A stretch of 42,769 nt of DNA, taken from NCBI GenBank assembly GCA_005805375.1, contig SYMT01000340.1, forward strand, positions 1 to 42,769, written 5' to 3'. Below are positions 8,838 to 20,472 of this stretch, in pieces. Numbering within the stretch: position 1 is the stretch's first letter; each line of letters starts with the position of its first letter. The translations under genes and the position numbers were made by a program. The notes beneath the pieces are model-generated. The model ran no database searches, was not told where the DNA came from, and worked only from the letters and a program-made list of their open reading frames with translations. The stretch is from Actinomycetota bacterium (GTDB lineage Bacteria; Armatimonadota; SYMT01).

Positions 8838-9716
8838 TTACTCCGGACCAAAGATGGCGTCGGCAAACTCTTTGGCGTTGAATGCCTGGATATCGGTGGG
8901 CTTTTCCCCGGTGCCCATGAATTTGATCGGGATGCCCAGTTCGTTCCGGATCGAGAGGACCACTCCTCCCCGCGCCGTCCCGTCTAGTTTCGTCAGGATA
9001 ATGCCGGTGATGGGTAGGGTGTCGGTGAAGGCGCGCGCCTGCTGCACCGCGTTCTGCCCGATGGTGGCGTCCAGCACCAGGAGCACCTCGTCGGCGGACC
9101 GGCCGAGGGCTCGTTCGGACACCCGATTCACCTTACGCAGCTCGTCCATCAGATTCGTCTTCGTGTGCAGACGACCCGCTGTGTCGGCGATCACCAGATC
9201 AGCGCCGCGGGCACGGGCTGCGGTCACGGCATCAAAGACCACCGCGGCCGGATCGGCGCCCTCGCGGTGGCGGATCATGTCCGTTTTCAGGCGGTCGGCC
9301 CATACCTGAAGCTGTTCGATTGCCCCGGCACGAAACGTGTCGGCCGCCGCCAGAATCACCCGGTTGCCGCGGGACTGGAAGTAGTGGGTGAGCTTGGCGA
9401 TGGACGTGGTTTTGCCCGTGCCGTTGACCCCCACCACCATAATGAGAGTGGGAGGGTTCGGCGCCCACTGGATGACGCCGCTGCCTGCGGAGAGATTCCG
9501 TTCAATGTCGGCCTTCAACCAGTTCTGAGCTTCTTCTCCAGTGGCGAGGCGTTCCTTGCGCACCGCCTCCCGCAGGCGAGTCACCAGCGACAGCGCCGTC
9601 TCATAGCCCACGTCCGCCTCGATCAGCGACTCTTCCAATTCTTCAAAGAGCGCGTCATCAATCTTCGTGCGCCGCTGGAAGATCTGAGTGACCTTCCGGA
9701 ACAGTCCGCGAAACAT
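8838..9716 (-). CDS. ftsY: Signal recognition particle receptor FtsY
   Basis: SRP GTPase motifs: VVGVNGTGKTTSIAKL, LAAADTFRAGAIEQL, LVIADTAGRLHTKTNLMDEL, ILTKLDGTARGG, GTGEKPTDIQAF. Confidence 0.97.
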   Translation of the reverse strand: MFRGLFRKVTQIFQRRTKIDDALFEELEESLIEADVGYETALSLVTRLREAVRKERLATGEEAQNWLKADIERNLSAGSGVIQWAPNPPTLIMVVGVNGTGKTTSIAKLTHYFQSRGNRVILAAADTFRAGAIEQLQVWADRLKTDMIRHREGADPAAVVFDAVTAARARGADLVIADTAGRLHTKTNLMDELRKVNRVSERALGRSADEVLLVLDATIGQNAVQQARAFTDTLPITGIILTKLDGTARGGVVLSIRNELGIPIKFMGTGEKPTDIQAFNAKEFADAIFGPE

Positions 9717-9794
9717 ACCCCCTCCGGAACGCAGGCAGAACGTCGGTCCTATGTTATACCAGCTTCGAGTTTCCGGTCCCCTTCACCCTTTGCC

Positions 9795-10604
9795 ATGCCC
9801 AACCGAGCCAACGACCTCAACGGCGTAGACTGGACGCGGTTCTCGATCAGCGTTTGGAACGACCTGCGGAAAACCCCCGAGGAAGTGGCTCTGGGTCACC
9901 CGGCGCTCTTCCCATCGGCGCTGATCGAGCGCGTGATCCGGTGTTTCACACAAGAAGATGCGCGCGTGGTGCTCGATCCCTTCTGCGGATCCGGTTCCAC
10001 ACTCGTCGCTGCCTGCCGGCTCGGTGGGCGCGGGATCGGATTCGAGGTGTCGGAGCCATATCGGGCGCTCTGCCTGCGCCGGCTGGAGGCGATCGCACCG
10101 CCGGCGCCCGGCGCGTATGAACTGCACGCCGAGGGGGCCGCGGGCGTGAAGGAGCGCCTCGCGCCCGAAAGTGTGGACCTCTGCGTGACCTCGCCCCCCT
10201 ACTGGAACATCCTCTCGCGTCCGCGGACCGCCGATGGGCGTGAGACGCGGGACTACGCCGGCGCTGCCGACGACCTGTCTCGCATTGAGGAGTACCCGAC
10301 ATTCCTCGAAACGCTGGCGCAGGTGCTGGACGGTGTCTGGGATGTGCTAAAGCCGGGCGCCTACTGTGTTGTCAACGTGATGGACCTGCGGAAGAAATCC
10401 CGGTTCTACCCGTTCCACAGTGATCTCGCCTCCCGCCTGTCCGACCCGGAACGAGGCGGACGCTACATCTATGACGACCTCATCATCTGGGACCGGCGCG
10501 CTGACTACAACTCACTCCGGCCCCTCGGCTACCCGGCAGTGTTTCGGGTGAACAAAGTCCACGAGTTTCTGATCCTGCTGCGGAAACCGCCACGCGCCGT
10601 CTGA
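9795..10604 (+). CDS. DNA methyltransferase (N4-cytosine/N6-adenine type, TSPPYW motif)
   Basis: VVLDPFCGSGSTLVAA (SAM-binding FxGxG) and CVTSPPYWNILS (catalytic motif IV); start at ATG 9795. Confidence 0.88.
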   Translation: MPNRANDLNGVDWTRFSISVWNDLRKTPEEVALGHPALFPSALIERVIRCFTQEDARVVLDPFCGSGSTLVAACRLGGRGIGFEVSEPYRALCLRRLEAIAPPAPGAYELHAEGAAGVKERLAPESVDLCVTSPPYWNILSRPRTADGRETRDYAGAADDLSRIEEYPTFLETLAQVLDGVWDVLKPGAYCVVNVMDLRKKSRFYPFHSDLASRLSDPERGGRYIYDDLIIWDRRADYNSLRPLGYPAVFRVNKVHEFLILLRKPPRAV

Positions 10605-10774
10605 GGAGACTGGAGTGCAGTGAGCCTCGGATTCGCTGCCCAGCGGCAGGAATTCATCGCTCGCACCGAGAAGTGCATTGCACCCAGAGCTTGCTCCGTA
10701 ACCGATCCCCGCCTGAATCCGTTCCAGCAACCATCCATTCTACAGCAAGAACCATCCCCGCTCGAGGACGACAC

Positions 10775-11392
10775 GTGCCATCCCAGACCCAATCCCTCAA
10801 CTGTCCGAACTGCGGCGGCCCCGTCCGCGTCGAGCACCGGTCTGTGCGGATGGTGGCGTGTGGCTACTGTGCGGGTCTGCTGGAGGTCGTTCCCGACGGC
10901 GTGCGGATGGCCGGCACGGCGGCGCGCCTGGTCCCGCTGCCCACACAGTTCCGGGTGGGACAGACCGGCACGATCCGCGGACGCCCGTTCCACGTACTGG
11001 GGCGGGTCCGCTATGCCTATGACGAGGGTGTGTGGGACGAGTGGTATCTCGCGCTGGATGATGGCCAGGCGGCGTGGCTGGAAGAAGACGACGGTGAGTA
11101 CATCCTCGCGCGGCCGGAGGAACTGCAAGGTGTAGTTCCCGGATTCGACCAACTCCGAATCGGTGTGCGGCTCACGGTGAACGGGTACTCGTTGATGGTC
11201 ACGGAGCGCTGCCGGGCCCGGGTGGCGGGAGCGGAGGGACAGCTTTTCTCGCGTGCGCTCTTGAATCGGCCGGTGAACTTTGTCGAAGGGAACGCCGGGG
11301 GCCGGATCGCCTACCTGGAGTTCTCGGACGATGGTGTGGAGTTCGGCATCGGCGAACCGCTGGATCGCTCCGATGTGCGCGTGGAGGCCTAG
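10775..11392 (+). CDS. DUF4178-domain protein with N-terminal zinc ribbon
   Basis: CPNCGG...CGYC zinc ribbon, FRVGQTGTIRGRPFHVLGRVRYAYDEGVWDEWYLALDDG is DUF4178-like; GTG start at 10775 likely (longest ORF 10673). Confidence 0.75.
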   Translation: MPSQTQSLNCPNCGGPVRVEHRSVRMVACGYCAGLLEVVPDGVRMAGTAARLVPLPTQFRVGQTGTIRGRPFHVLGRVRYAYDEGVWDEWYLALDDGQAAWLEEDDGEYILARPEELQGVVPGFDQLRIGVRLTVNGYSLMVTERCRARVAGAEGQLFSRALLNRPVNFVEGNAGGRIAYLEFSDDGVEFGIGEPLDRSDVRVEA

Positions 11393-11395
11393 CCG

Positions 11396-12652
11396 GTGCT
11401 GCTGCGCTCTCTGAACTGCCCGAACTGTGGAGGCCGAGCCCGTCTTCTGCGAGGAGAACAGACCGCCGCCTGCCTGCACTGCGGCTCGGAAGTGAAGCTC
11501 TCGCAGGCGTATCTGGAAGAACAGGCGCGGGCTCGGCGCTTTCCCACCCGCACATTTGTGCGCCTGGGGATGAAGGCGGACTGGCAGGGCGCCCAGTACG
11601 AGGTAGTCGGCCGTCAGGTGTTTCAGGACCCTGAGGACGCGACTTCGACCTGGGAGGAGTGGGTCCTCGTTTCCGAAACAGGCGAGGTGCTGTTCCTGGA
11701 GTTCGATGAAGGTAAGTGGAAGCTCAGCAAGAGCTTCACCCCGCAGCAGACGCCGAGTCCCGACCAACTGCGAAACGCACCTCCGGGCCGCGTGGTGAAC
11801 TTCGGCGACACACACGCAATGGTGACCGAGAGCGGAGCAGCCCTGATTGTCCATGTGGAAGGGGAACTCCCCTGGCTGGTGCGGCCCGGGCAAGCGACCG
11901 GGTACGTGGATGCCCTCCGAGCAGGCGAGTTCTTCTGCGTGGAGTGGACCGAGGATGCCATTGAATGCTACCGGGGCCATTTTGTGGACCAGCGGCAGCT
12001 CTGCACGCTCTTCGGGCAGAAGGAAGCCCTCATCGCGCTGGATCGGCAGCAACTGAGCCACCAGAGTCGTCGGCGGTTCGGAGCGGTATGTATCGCGGCC
12101 GGTGTCCTGGCTCTCTGCTGCTGGATCTATTCCTTTGGCGGCGGACAGGTGGTTGAGGGCGGGATGGGGAACACACCATTAGCCGGAGTCACCGACGAGG
12201 GAGTACGCTTCGGGCCGGTGGAGTTGAGAGCGCGGGATCGGGTACATCGCCTGGAGATTCAGGGGAAGATGAGCGACGACTCCAACTGGGTCGCCGCCGT
12301 GCTAGAGGATGCCGAGGAGCAGGAACTGGTGTCGGCAGACCGAGACATGTGGGATGAACACGGGGTCGACTCGGACGGCGCCTGGCACGAATCCGATCTG
12401 AGCGCCAGCCACGATTTCGTGCTGCGGAAGCCGGGCCAGTACTACGTCCGGTTGTATGCCGAGCCGGAGCCGGGCCGCACCCCTTCACTCGGCACGTCCG
12501 GGTCGTTCGTACTTCGGGAAGGAGTGTTGAACGGCACCTGGCTTGGCATCTACGGGTTCCTGGCCCTCGTCATCGGCACCTGCTTTTTGCTCTCTGGATC
12601 GCCCCAGACGGTGCAGAAGTTCCAGGAATCCATGGCCTCGTCCGACGATTGA
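11396..12652 (+). CDS. DUF4178-domain protein with zinc ribbon and C-terminal TM helices
   Basis: CPNCGG...CLHCGSEV; MKADWQGAQYEVVGRQVFQDPEDATSTWEEWVLVSETGEVLFLEFDEGKW; two C-terminal hydrophobic helices; GTG start. Confidence 0.75.
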   Translation: MLLRSLNCPNCGGRARLLRGEQTAACLHCGSEVKLSQAYLEEQARARRFPTRTFVRLGMKADWQGAQYEVVGRQVFQDPEDATSTWEEWVLVSETGEVLFLEFDEGKWKLSKSFTPQQTPSPDQLRNAPPGRVVNFGDTHAMVTESGAALIVHVEGELPWLVRPGQATGYVDALRAGEFFCVEWTEDAIECYRGHFVDQRQLCTLFGQKEALIALDRQQLSHQSRRRFGAVCIAAGVLALCCWIYSFGGGQVVEGGMGNTPLAGVTDEGVRFGPVELRARDRVHRLEIQGKMSDDSNWVAAVLEDAEEQELVSADRDMWDEHGVDSDGAWHESDLSASHDFVLRKPGQYYVRLYAEPEPGRTPSLGTSGSFVLREGVLNGTWLGIYGFLALVIGTCFLLSGSPQTVQKFQESMASSDD

Positions 12653-12697
12653 CACACCGGCAAGCAGGGACAATTGCCGGACAGGGGGAAGGATGAA

Positions 12698-12877
12698 ATG
12701 CTGCCGGGATATCGGATCGCAAGTGCGATCATCGTGGTCCTGCTGGGGCTCGCCTGGATGGCGGGATACTACGGCTGGGGACTGGACTCGGACGCTACGG
12801 CGCGGGCCCGCAACTTGCGGCAAGGCAGTATCCACGGGCGGCGCATGATGGGCGGCGGCCCCGGGTTCGGCAAGTAG
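12698..12877 (+). CDS. Small single-TM protein in the DUF4178/DUF350 cluster
   Basis: MLPGYRIASAIIVVLLGLAWMAGYYGWGLDSDATARARNLRQGSIHGRRMMGGGPGFGK; co-directional, short spacing. Confidence 0.6.
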   Translation: MLPGYRIASAIIVVLLGLAWMAGYYGWGLDSDATARARNLRQGSIHGRRMMGGGPGFGK

Positions 12878-12898
12878 GAGCAGGGGAGGAGACCGGGG

Positions 12899-13228
12899 AT
12901 GCGATCCTGGAAGCAAGGGACGGTGTGGGCGGCGGGTTTCCTGGCGTTGGGGCTCGCGGCGGCTGCGCGCGCGCAGAGTGGGCCCCTGGCGGTAGGCGGG
13001 GGCACCCCGGTGGGCGGGGCAGATCTCTGGTCGCAGGTGCTCACCACGCTGCTCTTCAGCGTGCTCGGCATGGTCCTGGTGATCGCCGGCTTCAAGCTGT
13101 TCGACGTGGTGATCCGCTTCGACCTGGAGCGGGAGATCTGCGAGAAGAACAATATCGCTGCGTCTATCCTGGCGGGTGCGGTCATCCTGGGTCTCTGCCT
13201 CATCGTCGCCGCGGTCATCCTGACGTGA
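12899..13228 (+). CDS. DUF350 (YjfL-like) membrane protein
   Basis: LFSVLGMVLVIAGFKLFDVVIRFDLEREICEKNNIAASILAGAVILGLCLIVAAVI is characteristic of DUF350. Confidence 0.9.
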   Translation: MRSWKQGTVWAAGFLALGLAAAARAQSGPLAVGGGTPVGGADLWSQVLTTLLFSVLGMVLVIAGFKLFDVVIRFDLEREICEKNNIAASILAGAVILGLCLIVAAVILT

Positions 13229-13361
13229 AATACCCGACCACGGAGGGACGCACGGGCAAGCGGAGCGGAGCCGTCTGCGTGGTACGACCTGTCCACTGAA
13301 GGATGAGGGCTAAGGGGGCGATACGTTCCGTGACTCCGAGCGGTCCGCTGCAGTGTGACGG

Positions 13362-14972
13362 ATGAGGCTGGACGACGGCGTGGCTGCACCACCGGCGGAC
13401 TCTGCGTCCGCCGCTCCAGATCCTGCAGCGCCCTCTTCGGCGCCTGCTCCGGTGGGGCCGCAGGACGAATCGCGGTCGGAGGCGTTTGCGCTCCTGGCGG
13501 CCATCTTCCTGGTTGCCGCCTGCGGATTGGTGTATGAGCTGCTCATCGCCACCGTTTCGTCCTACCTGCTGGGCAGCAGCGTCACCCAGTTTTCGCTCTC
13601 CGTCGGGCTCTTCGTCGGCTCCATGGGGCTGGGATCGTGGATCTCCCAGCGGGTGCAGCGGAAGCTCCTCCCCACGTTCTTTTTTCTCGAACTGGCCCTC
13701 GGAGCCGTCGGAGGCGTGTCCGCCACACTGCTGTTTGCCGCCTACCAGTATGGGGCGGTCTACTGGGTGCTGCTGCTCGGTCTCCTGGTGCTCATCGGCA
13801 CGCTGGTCGGCATCGAACTTCCGCTGCTGGTGCGTCTGCTGGATCAATACGGCCAGCTCCGGACGATTGTGGCGCAGGCTCTTTCCTTCGATTATCTCGG
13901 GTCGCTAGTGGGCTCCGTGCTCTTCCCGCTGGTGCTCCTCCCAGTGCTGGGCATCGTACGCACGGGGTTTGCGGTCGGACTGCTCAACGTGGGAGTGGCG
14001 CTGTACACGCTCCAGACATTCCGACATCGGTTTCGGGGTTCCGGGCCGCTGGTGCTGTGCTGGTTGACGGCGGCTGTACTCGCGGCCGGGTTTGCCTTCT
14101 CCCTCCAGCTCACATCGTTTCTGGAAGGCCGCCTCTACGACGATCAGGTGGTCTTTTCCCGCCAGACTCCGTATCAGCGGATCGTCTTCACTCGCTGGCG
14201 CGATGACTTTCGGCTCTTCCTCGACGGCAACATACAGTTCTCGTCGGTGGACGAGTATCGTTACCACGAAACGCTGATCCATCTTCCGCTGGGCCTCGCT
14301 GCCAATCGCGAGGAGGTCCTCATCCTTGGCGGGGGTGACGGGATGGCGGTGCGCGAGGTGCTGACATATCCCGACGTGCGACGGGTTACTGTGGTGGATC
14401 TGGACCCGGAGATGACGCGGCTGGCGCGGACCTATCCCACGCTGCGCGCCCTGAACCGGGACTCCCTGCACGACCCGCGCGTACGCCTGATTCATAAGGA
14501 CGCCTACACATTCCTGGAGAAGGGTGTCGAGCGTTTCGGTGTAATTGTCACGGACCTCCCCGACCCGAACAACGACGCGCTGGCCAAGCTCTACTCGCGG
14601 GAGTTTTACCGGTTGGTGCAACATCGGTTGGGCCAGGGGGGCGTGTTCATTACGCAGGCAGGTTCGCCGTTCTTTGGGCGCGAGGCGTTCTGGTGCATCG
14701 TCCGCACCATGCGCGCCGCCGGCTTTCGGACGGCGCCGGTGCATACCTACGTACCGAGTTTCGGAGACTGGGGGTGGGTTCTGGGCTCCCAGCGAACCCT
14801 CCACCTGCCTCGGGCTCGTCTCCCGAGAACTCTCCGCTTCCTCTCCCCCGCGGTACTTCCTACCCTGTCCGTCTTCGATGCCGATGCGGCCGAGATCCCG
14901 GTGGAGATCTCCACGCTGGATCACCCCCGCATTCAGAGGTACTACCTGGAAGGCGCCCGGCGCTGGGACTGA
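13362..14972 (+). CDS. Membrane-embedded polyamine aminopropyltransferase (spermidine synthase-like)
   Basis: About 7 N-terminal TM helices, then SpeE-like domain: LILGGGDGMAVREVLTYPDVRRVTVVDLDPEMTRLAR, VIVTDLPDPNNDALAKLYSREFYRL. Confidence 0.92.
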   Translation: MRLDDGVAAPPADSASAAPDPAAPSSAPAPVGPQDESRSEAFALLAAIFLVAACGLVYELLIATVSSYLLGSSVTQFSLSVGLFVGSMGLGSWISQRVQRKLLPTFFFLELALGAVGGVSATLLFAAYQYGAVYWVLLLGLLVLIGTLVGIELPLLVRLLDQYGQLRTIVAQALSFDYLGSLVGSVLFPLVLLPVLGIVRTGFAVGLLNVGVALYTLQTFRHRFRGSGPLVLCWLTAAVLAAGFAFSLQLTSFLEGRLYDDQVVFSRQTPYQRIVFTRWRDDFRLFLDGNIQFSSVDEYRYHETLIHLPLGLAANREEVLILGGGDGMAVREVLTYPDVRRVTVVDLDPEMTRLARTYPTLRALNRDSLHDPRVRLIHKDAYTFLEKGVERFGVIVTDLPDPNNDALAKLYSREFYRLVQHRLGQGGVFITQAGSPFFGREAFWCIVRTMRAAGFRTAPVHTYVPSFGDWGWVLGSQRTLHLPRARLPRTLRFLSPAVLPTLSVFDADAAEIPVEISTLDHPRIQRYYLEGARRWD

Positions 14973-15315: not shown

Positions 15316-15582
15316 ATGCGGAGAACGATCACAGGAGAGCCGGACCCTCAGAGACCGATCTCCGAGGAGAGGGACACGGTGCGACTGACCTTCCTGGGCG
15401 ACTGGGAGGAAGGAACCGGCCGGCCCGTCGAAGAACACGCGCGGCGGCATCCTCGCCACGCCGGTGCGCTGCTGGAATGTGCGGTGGGAGCGCTTGAACT
15501 CTCCGGGCCGCCGGGGGCAGGGTCGCCCATTGAGGAAACAGAGGCGCCGCTGGACCCTGCGGCGGCCGAACGGATGCGTTAA
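15316..15582 (+). CDS. Small hypothetical protein resembling the N-terminal module of the 16413 protein
   Basis: DTVRLTFLGDWEEGTGRPVEEHARRHPRHAGALLECAVGALE aligns with DSIRLEYLEAWEENRAPSLESLVARHPQYAAELSDLVFSLLE. Confidence 0.5.
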   Translation: MRRTITGEPDPQRPISEERDTVRLTFLGDWEEGTGRPVEEHARRHPRHAGALLECAVGALELSGPPGAGSPIEETEAPLDPAAAERMR

Positions 15583-15704
15583 GAAAACGGCTGGAAAAAT
15601 CCGTTGCCGACTTTGCATGGGAGCCGGCGCATGGACTACCGGCCGGTTCGGGGAAACGGCGGCGTCCGCTCGGCGCAGGCGCCCGCAACCGGAGAGGGAT
15701 TGGG

Positions 15705-16400
15705 ATGCTGTCGAACGCCTATCAGGACGGGATCTTCGCGGCGGGAGAGGCGGAGCAGCGGGTGAAGTCGCTGCGCGCTCACCTCCGGCAGGCGGCGGAG
15801 CTGGAGGCAGCGGGGAATCGGGACGAGGCACGGCTGGAAGTGCGGAAGAGCGATCGGATCATCGAAGAGTTGATCCGTCGTCTCGCCGGGCGCTTCCGCC
15901 GCTATGCTCGCCGCCGCCTGCCGGACCCGGATCTGGAGGAGGACGCGGTGGTGGAGATGGGTATCGAGCTCACTCGCCGCGTCCGCCGGATTGACGGCAG
16001 CTACCTGTTCCTGGAGCAGTGCTTCAACCGGGGGGTTTTTACCATGCACCTGGACGTTCTGGAACGGGTTCGGCGCGAGAACGACTTGCGCCCGGGGCAG
16101 GCTGCGGTTCTCAGCCTGGATGCCCGCGTTGCCGACGCAGAGGACGCGCCGCTTCTCGCCGACGTGGTGGAAGATCCTGCGGCACGTGAGAAGCTCGAGG
16201 CTGTGCTGGGTCGCAGCTACATGGATCGCGTGATGCGCGAACTCCCACCGCGCCATTTACAGATCCTGATGGATCGGCTGAACGGTCTGGAGTGGGAACA
16301 GATCGCGGCTCGCTCTGGGGTCAGCCTGCGGACTGCGCGCAACCACTATGACCAGGGTCTGGCCCGAGTGCGGGTCATGCTGGTCTCCGGGGCAGAGTGA
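15705..16400 (+). CDS. Sigma-70-family-like (ECF-type) factor / HTH regulator
   Basis: Helical region 2-like segment plus C-terminal region-4-like HTH: LPPRHLQILMDRLNGLEWEQIAARSGVSLRTARNHYDQGLARVRVML; upstream ggagaggg ribosome-binding site. Confidence 0.75.
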   Translation: MLSNAYQDGIFAAGEAEQRVKSLRAHLRQAAELEAAGNRDEARLEVRKSDRIIEELIRRLAGRFRRYARRRLPDPDLEEDAVVEMGIELTRRVRRIDGSYLFLEQCFNRGVFTMHLDVLERVRRENDLRPGQAAVLSLDARVADAEDAPLLADVVEDPAAREKLEAVLGRSYMDRVMRELPPRHLQILMDRLNGLEWEQIAARSGVSLRTARNHYDQGLARVRVMLVSGAE

Positions 16401-16412
16401 GGGACGAACCCG

Positions 16413-17003
16413 ATGGACACCACATACGAACTGGACTCAATTCGACTGGAGTACCTGGAAGCGTGGGAAGAGAACCGGGCTCCCTCGCTGGAAAGCCTGG
16501 TGGCCCGGCATCCGCAGTACGCGGCGGAGTTGAGCGACCTGGTCTTTTCCCTATTGGAAGAGGATCCTGAGGCGGGGGTTCGCAGGGATGCGGCACCGGC
16601 GGAGGATCCGGCGCTGGCGCGAATCCTCGCCTTCGTCCACGGTAATGATGAGTCGCTGGCGCAGGCCCGCAAGGCGGTCGGATGGAGCCCGGGCGCGTTG
16701 GCCCAGCGGCTGAACCTTCCCGCCCGGATGGTGGCCTGGCTGGAACAGGGTACTCTCCGCGAGTTGCCCGAGCAACTGGAATTGCGGCTGGCGGAACTAT
16801 TCGCCCGATCCCGCGACCAGGTTCGGGAGATGCTTGCACCCCCAGTGCTGCGGCAGCCCGCGGGTGCGTTCTTTCGGGCTACCGGCGGCTCTCCGCGCAC
16901 TCCCGTGGCCCGCGAGCGCACCTTTGAAGAGGCGCTCGCCGAGTGCTCACGTCAGGAACCGTTGACCGAGAGCCAGCGGCAGGAGTGGTTGGGAACCGCC
17001 TGA
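16413..17003 (+). CDS. HTH-domain protein (XRE-like) with N-terminal RL.YL..WE...RHP..A.EL module
   Basis: LAQARKAVGWSPGALAQRLNLPARMVAWLEQGTLRELPEQLELRLAELFARSRDQVREML resembles an XRE HTH; starts 12 nt after the sigma-like gene and ends 1 nt before the helicase fusion. Confidence 0.65.
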   Translation: MDTTYELDSIRLEYLEAWEENRAPSLESLVARHPQYAAELSDLVFSLLEEDPEAGVRRDAAPAEDPALARILAFVHGNDESLAQARKAVGWSPGALAQRLNLPARMVAWLEQGTLRELPEQLELRLAELFARSRDQVREMLAPPVLRQPAGAFFRATGGSPRTPVARERTFEEALAECSRQEPLTESQRQEWLGTA

Positions 17004-17004
17004 G

Positions 17005-20000
17005 ATGGATCGCGCAGCGGTGGTCCGGGAACGGGCGCGGGCCCTGCTGATCGAGCAGGAGCGACGGACGGGGCGCGCGTACTCGCCCCGGGGTGACCCC
17101 AACCCGTTCCTGGAACTCGTCGCGCGCCGCTGTTTTCGTCTCACCGTATTTGAGGAGCCGGACCTGCCCGCGGAAGTCGAGGGCATGCTGGATCTGGATG
17201 CGGACCTGATCCTGATCCAGCCGGGGCTCTCTGCCCCACGCCGCGCCTTTGTCGTGGCGCACGAACTGGGGCACCGGGCGCTGGAACACCCTCCCCGCCA
17301 GCTTTTGGACACGGAAGCAGAGCTGGATGAAAACCTCCCCGCTGAGGATCTCGCGGACCGGGATGGAGTCTTCCGCGCCTATAGCGAAGCGGATCGCTGG
17401 GAACGCGAAGCCAATGCCTTCGCCGGTGAGTTGCTCGTGCCGCTGGAGATCCTCCGCAGCCAGGTGCGCGCGGACCTGCGCTGGTCGGTCGAAAGGCTGG
17501 CGGCGCGGTTCGGCGTCTCAAAGGCCCTTCTGCGCAACCGCCTTGCCGCTGCGTTCCTCGTAGGGCAGGAACTGAGCGGAGAGGCGCGCAGTGCGGTAAG
17601 GGGGACGCCGCACCACAGTGATGCGGGGCAGCCGGCACCCCTCCCCACGATCTACCGATCGCCGGCCTCGGACCTCGACCCGGCCCAGCAAGCGGCGGTG
17701 GAGGCGCCGACGCCTGCGCTGGTGATCGCGGGGCCGGGAGCAGGAAAGACCCGTGTCCTGGTGCGCCGCTTTGAGCGCCTGGTCGCGCAGGGGATGGATC
17801 CCCGGCGGATCCTGGCGCTTACGTTCAGCAACCGGGCAGCGGGGGAAATGCAGGACCGGCTCGCGGCGGCTCTGCCGGACCAGGCTCACGCGCTGCACGT
17901 CACCACCTTTCACGCGCTGGGGCTCCAGTTGCTCCGGGAGTTCGGGTTTGCCCTCGGTTACCCCGAAGGAGAGCTGCGACTCCTCCCTCCTATGGACGAG
18001 TTCGTCTTCCTGCGCCCCCACATCGCCGGGCTGCCGTTGGGAGAGTTTGAGGACCTCCACCGGCCCACGCGGGATCTGGGTCTCCTCCTCCGCGTCATTT
18101 CTCGCTTGAAGGATGAACAGATCGGCCCCCGGGAGTTTGCTGATCAGGTCGCACGCTGGCAGGCGGTACTGGCCGCGGACGAGTCGGGCCGCGAGGGGCT
18201 GGCAGAAGAACGCGCGGCAGCAGCACGTGCGGCGGATCTGGCGACGCTCTACCCGGCGATCTTCCACATCCTCCGCAGCGCGGGCGCGGTGGACTATGGC
18301 GACCTGGTGAGCGAGGCCGTGCGGCTCTGCGGCCTGCCCGAAATCGGCGATCTCATCCGGAACCGGTTCAGCCAGATCCTGGTGGATGAGTTTCAGGACA
18401 TCAACTATGCCGGCGGGAGGCTGGTGCGGGCACTGGATGGAGGGCGCGGAATCGTCTGGGCGGTAGGAGACCCACGCCAAAGCATCTATCGCTTCCGCGG
18501 CGCGTCTCCCGCCAACCTGCTCGAATTCTCTCGGGACTATCCGGGTGCGAAGGTGCATTTCCTCGACCGGAACTATCGCTCCGTGGCTTCGATCGTCGCC
18601 TGCGGAGAAGCGGCGCCGCGCCCAGATCTGCCGCCGGAGCTCACTGCCCCGCCTCTGCTGCCGGTCCGCCCCGACCGCGATGGCGGGCCCGTGATCGAGC
18701 TTACCACCGCTCCGGACGGCAACGCAGAAGTCGCCCATCTGGCATTTCAGATCGGTGACCTGTTGGAAGCAGGACGGGAACCGGGCGAGATGGCAGTGCT
18801 GTGTCGCACGCGCAGCCAGGCGCAGCGGGTAGCCGCGGCGCTGGGGGAGCGCGGGATCGCTACGACCTGGAACGGGGCCCTCGAAGACCAGCCGCTGTTT
18901 CAGGACCTCATGGGCGTGCTGCTTCTCGCCGCCGACGATCCACGCGGATTGCCCCGCATGGCTCGTTTCCCCGATCACGCCCTGACGGAGGAGGATCTCC
19001 GTGCGCTCCTGGAGACAGGTCGAGCCCCTGGACGGTCTGCGCGTGCGCTCCTCCGAGCAGGGGTGCAGGGAGAAGTGCCCACACTGTCCGCTCCCGGCCG
19101 TCGGGTGGCCACCCGCCTCCTCCAGTTGGCGGGGCGACTGGCACACGCCGGCGGGGCCTGGGAGACGCTCGCGACCTATCTTTTCGAAGAGGCCGGCTGG
19201 GTAAGGGATCTGCTGGCCGACGATTCTCCCTCGGCCCGCCAGGCGCGCAGTGTGGTGGGCCAGGTGGCCGGTCTGGCCCGAGAGTTCCCCGGACGTGCGA
19301 CCCTGCTGGGAGCCGATAGTGCCGCCACGTTCGTGGAGTTCCTGGAATTGGCGCTGGAAGCCGGGGAATTGCCGCACGGCGATGGGGGGGCGTCGAGCGA
19401 TGCGGTCGCGGTCCTCACTGCGCATCGGAGCAAGGGGCTCGAGTGGCCCATCGTCTTCGTGCCCTACCTCGCGGCGGGACATTTTCCGCCGAAGGAGCAG
19501 CCGCCTGAGTTTCGTTTTCCCCCAGATACCCTGCGCGGCGCCGACATGCAGACCGGAGACGAGGAACTCTGCCTGTTCTATGTGGCCGTAACCCGCGCCC
19601 GGGACCGGCTGTACCTTTCGTGCGCCGAGCGGTACGCCAATCGCGCCTGCCCTCCCTCCCCATACGTGCAGTCATTGCGCGCCGGTCTCCCCGCGGACGT
19701 ACTGGCAGAGCGGACCGCGCCCCCGGCGCCGCCGCCGCTGGACCCGCCTCCTCGTCCCCAGCATGCCGGCTGGAAACTGGGTCAGACGGCGCCCGCGTCC
19801 CTGCTCGCTCGCTACGAAGCGTGCCCCCGGCGTTTCCTCTATGAAACCGTCTATGGCCTGGAAGCGGCGGATCGGGGCTACCGCGACTTCCACCGCGTGG
19901 TGTACGGGATGATGAGCCGGACGGTGGAATGCGCTGCCGCGAAGGAACCGCTCACAGCGGAACAACTGACTACCGAATTGGAAGCCCGCTGGCAGGAAGA

Positions 20001-20472
20001 AGGGCCGCACGGTCACCTGCTCGAGCCGCTCTACCGCCGGCGGGCCGACACCGTCATCCGCGAGTTCCACACCCGGGTGGGTTCCGGCGCCCCGGTCAGT
20101 CTCCGTCCGAAGCTGCTGGTCCCGGTGGGCAATCGGCTCGTCGAGGTGACGCTGGACGAAGTGGAGTCCGGCCCCCGGCCCGTCTATCGCCGTCACCATC
20201 TGGGCCGGCCAGCCAAGGCGCATCTGGAAGAGCACGCGCTCATGCTGGCGGCATCCGTCACTGGAAACGCCGAACTCCGGCTCGCCTACCCTGCAGGCGC
20301 CGAGGAAGTGCCGGTGTTCCCCACGGCCCGCAAGGTGCAGAACCGCCTTACGAAGATGGCAGACCTGATCCGGGCCATTGAGGCGGGCGAGTTCACACCC
20401 AAGCCGAACCAGATGCAATGCGCCCGCTGCCGCTTCCGGCTGATTTGCCCTATGCAGGAGGGGAGAGGGTAG
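17005..20472 (+). CDS. ImmA/IrrE-family metalloprotease - UvrD/PcrA-type helicase - Cys-cluster PD-(D/E)XK-like fusion
   Basis: VVAHELGHRALEHP (HExxH) plus WEREANAFAGELLVP; Walker A AGPGAGKTRVLVRR; ILVDEFQDINYAGGRLVRAL; VGDPRQSIYRFRGA; LTAHRSKGLEWPIVFVPY; LFYVAVTRARDRLYLS; C-terminus YEACPRRFLYE ... CARCRFRLIC. Confidence 0.9.
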   Translation: MDRAAVVRERARALLIEQERRTGRAYSPRGDPNPFLELVARRCFRLTVFEEPDLPAEVEGMLDLDADLILIQPGLSAPRRAFVVAHELGHRALEHPPRQLLDTEAELDENLPAEDLADRDGVFRAYSEADRWEREANAFAGELLVPLEILRSQVRADLRWSVERLAARFGVSKALLRNRLAAAFLVGQELSGEARSAVRGTPHHSDAGQPAPLPTIYRSPASDLDPAQQAAVEAPTPALVIAGPGAGKTRVLVRRFERLVAQGMDPRRILALTFSNRAAGEMQDRLAAALPDQAHALHVTTFHALGLQLLREFGFALGYPEGELRLLPPMDEFVFLRPHIAGLPLGEFEDLHRPTRDLGLLLRVISRLKDEQIGPREFADQVARWQAVLAADESGREGLAEERAAAARAADLATLYPAIFHILRSAGAVDYGDLVSEAVRLCGLPEIGDLIRNRFSQILVDEFQDINYAGGRLVRALDGGRGIVWAVGDPRQSIYRFRGASPANLLEFSRDYPGAKVHFLDRNYRSVASIVACGEAAPRPDLPPELTAPPLLPVRPDRDGGPVIELTTAPDGNAEVAHLAFQIGDLLEAGREPGEMAVLCRTRSQAQRVAAALGERGIATTWNGALEDQPLFQDLMGVLLLAADDPRGLPRMARFPDHALTEEDLRALLETGRAPGRSARALLRAGVQGEVPTLSAPGRRVATRLLQLAGRLAHAGGAWETLATYLFEEAGWVRDLLADDSPSARQARSVVGQVAGLAREFPGRATLLGADSAATFVEFLELALEAGELPHGDGGASSDAVAVLTAHRSKGLEWPIVFVPYLAAGHFPPKEQPPEFRFPPDTLRGADMQTGDEELCLFYVAVTRARDRLYLSCAERYANRACPPSPYVQSLRAGLPADVLAERTAPPAPPPLDPPPRPQHAGWKLGQTAPASLLARYEACPRRFLYETVYGLEAADRGYRDFHRVVYGMMSRTVECAAAKEPLTAEQLTTELEARWQEEGPHGHLLEPLYRRRADTVIREFHTRVGSGAPVSLRPKLLVPVGNRLVEVTLDEVESGPRPVYRRHHLGRPAKAHLEEHALMLAASVTGNAELRLAYPAGAEEVPVFPTARKVQNRLTKMADLIRAIEAGEFTPKPNQMQCARCRFRLICPMQEGRG

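Follow-up and report, generated by a model that had tools for sequence, protein, structure and literature searches.

What does a metallopeptidase of the ImmA/IrrE (M78) type do when it is carried on the same polypeptide as a DNA helicase? This question is raised by one open reading frame (ORF) in contig SYMT01000340.1 (assembly GCA_005805375.1) of an Actinomycetota bacterium that GTDB places in the Armatimonadota; positions 1 to 42,769 of this contig were analyzed and are referred to here as the window. In the ImmA-ImmR, IrrE/PprI-DdrO and CapP-CapH pairs, M78 proteases cut helix-turn-helix (HTH) repressors. The original prediction, which combined an ImmA/IrrE metallopeptidase and a UvrD-type helicase in this ORF of 1155 amino acids, proposed that the protein senses DNA and then cleaves a repressor. 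Based on the analyses reported below, we consider with moderate confidence that the fusion, termed G3, acts as sensor and protease in a transcriptional switch of three genes, in which DNA would activate it to cleave an HTH protein (G2) and thereby free a sigma-like protein (G1).

Architecture of the fusion protein

The features of G3 are as follows.

17005..20472, + strand: G3, fusion of M78 peptidase, UvrD helicase and iron-sulphur (Fe-S) pseudo-nuclease, 1155 aa (ORF, Pfam, alignment, AlphaFold2)
17143..17544, + strand: M78 (ImmA/IrrE-type) metallopeptidase domain, residues 47-180 (Pfam PF06114, 1.6e-14)
17575..17664, + strand: flexible linker that joins the protease to the helicase, residues 191-220 (predicted local distance difference test, pLDDT, < 50)
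17677..19632, + strand: superfamily 1A (SF1A) UvrD-type helicase, residues 225-876 (Pfam, Foldseek)
19786..20451, + strand: PD-(D/E)XK-derived domain in which four Cys but no catalytic D/ExK are conserved (PF12705, 6.1e-8; 119-member alignment)

G3 is read in a single frame from an ATG start, with no internal stop, and both predicted halves were confirmed by Pfam and by the AlphaFold2 model. The Peptidase_M78 match reaches 54.2 bits against a cut-off of 22, and the features that define membership are present, namely, the HExxH motif (residues 86-90, positions 17260-17274), a downstream acidic ligand and the EANxFA motif, with E133 as the third conserved acid. Among solved structures, the M78 family profile matched CapP best (7t5t, 1.3e-9), followed by IrrE (3dte, 9.6e-8). 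Unlike in IrrE/PprI, where a GAF-like sensor domain comes after the M78 protease, no GAF match was detected by Pfam in G3; its place is taken by the helicase, which was matched by UvrD-helicase (residues 225-513, 5.4e-53) and UvrD_C (residues 776-875, 3.8e-23). The PDDEXK_1 match starts at residue 932 (33.3 bits, cut-off 22), the cas4 model aligns with residues 1052-1149 (3.8e-5), and C940, C1139, C1142 and C1148 (C1139xxCx5C1148) form an iron-sulphur pattern of the AddB/Cas4 type.

The AlphaFold2 model, built on an alignment of 44 relatives, has a mean pLDDT of 89.1 and a predicted template modelling score (pTM) of 0.89, and the linker at residues 191-220 is its one disordered segment. In Foldseek searches with this model the helicase resembled UvrD/PcrA (6e-33), and a longer stretch resembled AdnB and AddAB (AdnB TMq 0.48-0.49). 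As to orthology with UvrD, PcrA or Rep, G3 scored below all equivalog cut-offs (226.8 vs 911.2 bits for PcrA). A known PADLOC system was likewise ruled out for G3, which gave only generic UvrD/GajB/RTasHel helicase matches.

Distribution and conserved residues of the family

Searches of 291 Armatimonadota genomes with the M78 part alone mostly returned ORFs of ~1000-1200 aa, and the Armatimonadota loci that were read encode the same three-domain protein as G3 at ~26-39% identity. The nearest relatives of the window fusion are few (L048, L148, L054 and L049). A tblastn search of plasmids with G3 gave 65 records with at least 80% query coverage, the best of which (41.5%) was an Abditibacteriota plasmid. 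A scan of one genome per species identified 80 fusion loci in alpha-, beta-, gamma- and deltaproteobacteria, Acidobacteriota, Nitrospirota (Ca. Manganitrophus), Chloroflexota, Verrucomicrobia and Armatimonadota, and the family spans at least six phyla (Armatimonadota, Pseudomonadota, Acidobacteriota, Chloroflexota, Nitrospirota and Verrucomicrobia). M78 matches were also obtained in a scan of viral contigs, the best with an E-value of 6e-10.

The domain order is identical in every full-length relative, and the presence of the same fusion in more than 100 relatives rules out an assembly chimera of two separate genes. In an alignment of 119 sequences (68 clusters at 60% identity), H86 and H90 of the HExxH motif are kept in all 117 members that cover the site and E87 in 115 of these 117, the two replacements being those of L228 and L054 (K and A). 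E133 is kept in 117/117 members covering it, the Walker A lysine and DExQ residues of the helicase in 118/119, and the four Cys (C-(n)-CxxCx5C) in 111-112 of 111-113. No catalytic D or ExK of a PD-(D/E)XK nuclease is conserved across residues 930-1140, and an active nuclease in the C-terminal domain is thus not supported. Given this conservation of active sites as opposed to the loss of nuclease residues, the protease and the motor of the family seem to be functional, whereas the nuclease seems to be dead and an Fe-S site is probably retained in the C-terminal domain. The intact HExxH and complete SF1A motif set noted in the original prediction are near-invariant, and its C-terminal Cys cluster is conserved family-wide; the nuclease origin of that region, devoid of conserved catalytic residues, had escaped it. 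G3 shares with AdnAB, AddAB and UvrD-PcrA the helicase fold, the PD-(D/E)XK-derived C-terminus and the AddB/Cas4 Cys pattern, but differs from them by its scores below the equivalog cut-offs, the lost nuclease residues and the added M78 domain.

The fusion as part of a three-gene operon

The real unit is an operon of three genes, in which the sigma-like G1 and the HTH protein G2 precede the fusion.

15705..16400, + strand: G1, sigma-70/extracytoplasmic function (ECF)-like protein, 231 aa, 12 nt before G2 (TIGR02937, 1e-8; Sigma70_r4_2, 4.1e-6)
16413..17003, + strand: G2, XRE-type HTH protein of 196 aa, probable repressor or anti-sigma factor and probable protease substrate (HTH_25, 9.9e-7; conserved family; AlphaFold2 pLDDT 84.5)
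16656..16829, + strand: HTH domain of G2, residues 82-139 (HTH_25; AlphaFold2 model)
16836..16991, + strand: linker and conserved C-terminal tail of G2, residues 142-193, candidate cleavage/recognition region (AlphaFold2; retained in the ribbon-helix-helix-type partners described below)
15316..15582, + strand: G0, small ORF, 88 aa, possible fourth operon member or decayed G2 copy (G2 profile match at 15361-15594, E=1.7e-4)

The original prediction correctly placed an M78 protease-helicase fusion beside the HTH gene at 16413, its most likely partner, but it missed the widespread family, the sigma-70-like gene and the promoter-like element treated below. The TIGR02937 match covers residues 53-225 of G1, and Pfam detected sigma region 4 in 33 of 39 G1 family members. 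The stop of G2 lies 1 nt before the start of G3. In its AlphaFold2 model an ordered HTH is followed by a low-confidence linker (residues 142-168) and two C-terminal helices. Common to the G2 members are a helical N-terminal segment, a region resembling an HTH and the C-terminal tail (YRA..P......F..A......eQ..WL). The G2 HTH superposes on those of SinR, ImmR, DdrO and CapH, with no Foldseek E-value as low as 0.001. The similarity of G0 to G2 is confined to the helical N-terminal part. Further variants were seen in relatives: in one the C-terminal tail of G2 is repeated (L051:11925-12626), and genomes G051, G052 and G053 (L065, L055 and L061) carry additional G2 copies in tandem or G2 variants devoid of the N-terminal segment, which suggests duplication within the module.

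The trio is conserved: in profile searches G1 and G2 were both found at E<1e-5 at 81 of 118 fusion loci, 26 of which had supplied training sequences to the profiles. Genes at unannotated loci were called by a simple ORF heuristic. Among the 291 Armatimonadota genomes, 39 have G2 and the fusion, 4 the fusion only, 1 G2 only (G015, locus not read) and 247 neither. G2 was strong in 40 of these genomes, for which the fusion was found in 32 by the M78 search and in 7 more by reading the locus; of the eight genomes that seemed to have G2 without the fusion, seven hold the full trio on direct reading and the eighth is G015. The Fisher value for this co-occurrence (5e-45) assumed 40/40 and ignores phylogeny, and is indicative only. 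In several genomes (G010, G042, G043, G049 and G056) G1 and G2 form a pair away from the fusion, so that the co-occurrence of G2 and the fusion reflects more than linkage. L054, the sole Armatimonadota fusion that lacks the HExxH glutamate, comes from a genome without G2.

A different partner is found in a Pseudomonas/Burkholderia clade of fusions, which is monophyletic (support 1.0) and has no G1. The protein encoded upstream has a different N-terminus with ribbon-helix-helix (RHH) features (RHH_5, 0.0041 in one member, below the cut-off) and keeps a C-terminal half that resembles that of G2 (3e-11 to 8e-5 in 14/19). The part retained would thus be the one expected to meet the protease. At all ten loci listed for this clade, a gene of ~330-380 aa is transcribed divergently from the protease-helicase pair (L222:6531-7586, L229:6848-7882 and equivalents); two tested members are weakly TauD/TfdA-like, and the gene is a possible regulated target.

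A promoter-like element shared with downstream operons

Outside the Armatimonadota the trio is usually located upstream of a Bub-type (multiubiquitin/E1/JAB) operon, of the kind described in PMC13373217. An operon of ubiquitin-like (UBL)/multiubiquitin, JAB and E1 (ThiF) genes directly follows the fusion at 49 loci, 48 of them outside the Armatimonadota, a context that the original prediction did not see. Matches in these relatives include PF14452 (9.7e-18) and PF00899 (3.4e-27) at L153, and Prok-JAB (3.7e-5, just under the cut-off) at L152.

Both operons carry a promoter-like element with the consensus GcCTTTCCGGGTT, in which TTCCGG is followed at a spacing of 16-17 by CGATCA (CTTTCCGGgTT-N13/14-CGATYA). 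In a de novo dyad count it was found before G1 at 26/84 loci (shuffled maximum 8) and, at 26/49 Bub loci (shuffled maximum 5), in the gap that separates the fusion from the Bub operon. The sites in this gap mostly start 13-16 nt past the fusion stop. Both sites occur in 13/21 Bub-linked clusters (60% identity). Across 30 genomes the exact pattern gave 34 matches, 31 of them at the trio locus and typically as a pair 5 kb apart, as compared to none for the reversed control. The three off-locus matches were taken as chance, since each falls within a coding sequence or lacks a plausible gene start. In Aquibium carbonis, a caspase-family gene (L261:1584-3029; Peptidase_C14, 3e-41) is preceded at ~55 nt by a third site. 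In the Armatimonadota the same -35 is combined with a GAGTA -10 (top dyad 13/40, shuffled 7). In the Armatimonadota relative L049, a 106-aa gene without a Pfam match (L049:3082-3399) directly follows a good promoter match past the fusion (position weight matrix, PWM, score 9.8) and is a candidate effector. A shared element at both operons fits a sigma factor that would drive its own operon and the effector operon.

It is in this context that another role can be weighed, in which the fusion itself is the effector, as an anti-invader or repair helicase of the AdnB/GajB type, the M78 domain only derepresses its own operon, and G1 and G2 are simple autoregulators. The complete helicase motifs, the overall AdnB/AddAB-like fold in Foldseek and the lack of a conserved effector operon after the fusion in the window and in most Armatimonadota would agree with this role. 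However, the nuclease residues are not conserved family-wide, there is no conserved GajA-like or AddB-like neighbor, and other effectors follow the fusion at 49 loci, many with the shared promoter. We regard this explanation as unlikely.

Proposed mechanism

In the switch that we favor, G2 would at rest hold the sigma factor G1 inactive or block the promoters of G1. Abnormal DNA (single-stranded DNA, ends or invading DNA) would be bound or tracked by the UvrD/Fe-S part of the fusion, which, once engaged on DNA, would activate the tethered M78 protease. The activated protease may then cut G2 within or close to the exposed linker and C-terminal tail, and the freed G1 would recognize the promoter-like element and transcribe its own operon, creating positive feedback, as well as the effector operon past the fusion where there is one, usually of the Bub type and in one genome also the caspase-family gene. 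We infer the cleavage of an HTH regulator in response to DNA by analogy with CapP, PprI/IrrE and ImmA. CapP is activated by single-stranded DNA and cleaves an HTH repressor, as reported in PMC13373217, and PprI is likewise activated by single-stranded DNA and cleaves an HTH repressor (PMC10904395).

Several observations weigh against this scheme. No promoter match was found at the window trio (PWM scores of -7.2 and -4.8 vs a 99% null of 6.1), and no recognizable effector operon was found downstream of the window fusion. Some Armatimonadota fusions are unlinked from G1-G2, and L228 has kept G1 and G2 without having the catalytic glutamate. Pfam detected an HTH in just a few G2 members and sigma region 2 in only 2/39 G1 members. 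Finally, G2 may activate instead of inhibit. In that case it would serve as a transcriptional activator or sigma co-factor, and cleavage by M78 would turn the system off or reset it. The HTH of G2 could recruit the sigma factor to the promoter, but the characterized M78 partners ImmR, DdrO and CapH act as repressors whose cleavage brings derepression (PMC13373217, PMC10904395), which makes an activating G2 improbable.

The nature of the trigger can also be questioned. The helicase part might serve repair while M78 responds to metal or another stress, and in the case of PprI zinc shock has been considered (PMC10904395). Yet the helicase motifs of the fusion do not vary, the genes consistently linked to it encode regulators and often defense effectors, and a trigger other than DNA seems very improbable to us. 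A replacement of the LexA/SOS system was ruled out, since the window's genome carries lexA, as do 267/291 Armatimonadota genomes.

Relation to known systems

The closest comparison is with CapH + CapP, an HTH repressor and an M78 peptidase that control CBASS, Bub and other operons. As in that pair, an M78 protease is encoded beside an HTH gene and, in many G3 relatives, upstream of a Bub-type operon; CapP is the closest solved M78 relative, and the G2 HTH superposes on CapH (7t5u) with a weak E-value. In contrast to CapP, which has no motor domain, the protease is here fused to a helicase and a pseudo-nuclease, the trio adds a sigma-like gene and a conserved promoter, and the G2 tail is different. 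The location directly before a defense operon is seen in 49 relatives and is absent in the window. IrrE/PprI-DdrO of Deinococcus and ImmA-ImmR of ICEBs1 also pair an HExxH M78 protease with an XRE-HTH regulator, but their proteases lack a motor, their modules contain no sigma factor, and the window's genome has LexA. CapK + CapS, a kinase with a STAS-HTH repressor of Bub/CBASS operons, resembles the trio as a DNA-damage controller upstream of Bub operons (PMC13373217), but it acts by phosphorylation rather than proteolysis and its proteins are unrelated to those of the trio.

No description of the fusion or the trio was found in the open-access full-text literature, a search that did not extend to older surveys of prokaryotic ubiquitin-like operons, where a passing mention is possible. 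The module is apparently undescribed and seems to work like the CapH + CapP class without sharing its defining features. With slightly less confidence than for the switch itself, we place it in a new class of controllers of adjacent pathways, which would combine a sigma factor with an HTH inhibitor and a protease coupled to a motor. In this class, ATP-driven movement on DNA would license proteolysis, and the switch and a linked immune operon would be driven by one dedicated promoter type. The DNA sensor of the M78 protease would reside in the same polypeptide, as a translocating helicase whose Fe-S nuclease domain is dead.

How M78 proteases learn of DNA damage has long been unclear, and the fusion offers a one-protein system with a candidate sensor attached; if the scheme is correct, it would be an M78 protease with a DNA sensor built into its own polypeptide. 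Of 544 Bub operons, 219 have been assigned to CapW or CapH + CapP and 59 to CapK + CapS (PMC13373217), and the module is a candidate regulator, with a specific promoter, for Bub operons without known controllers. In at least six phyla it may tie a sigma factor and regulated proteolysis to operons for anti-phage defense or stress.

Other genes of the window

No Bub genes (multiubiquitin/UBL, E1 ThiF, JAB) were found beside the window trio, and the next gene past the fusion encodes a di-haem oxidoreductase on the opposite strand. On the same strand as the trio, a neighboring cluster at positions 10673-14972 comprises two DUF4178 genes and a short ORF together with a spermidine synthase gene (PRK03612, 2e-184). 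The ORF at 9165-10604 has a weak match to DNA methyltransferases (CcrM-like, 4.5e-11) over residues 239-313.

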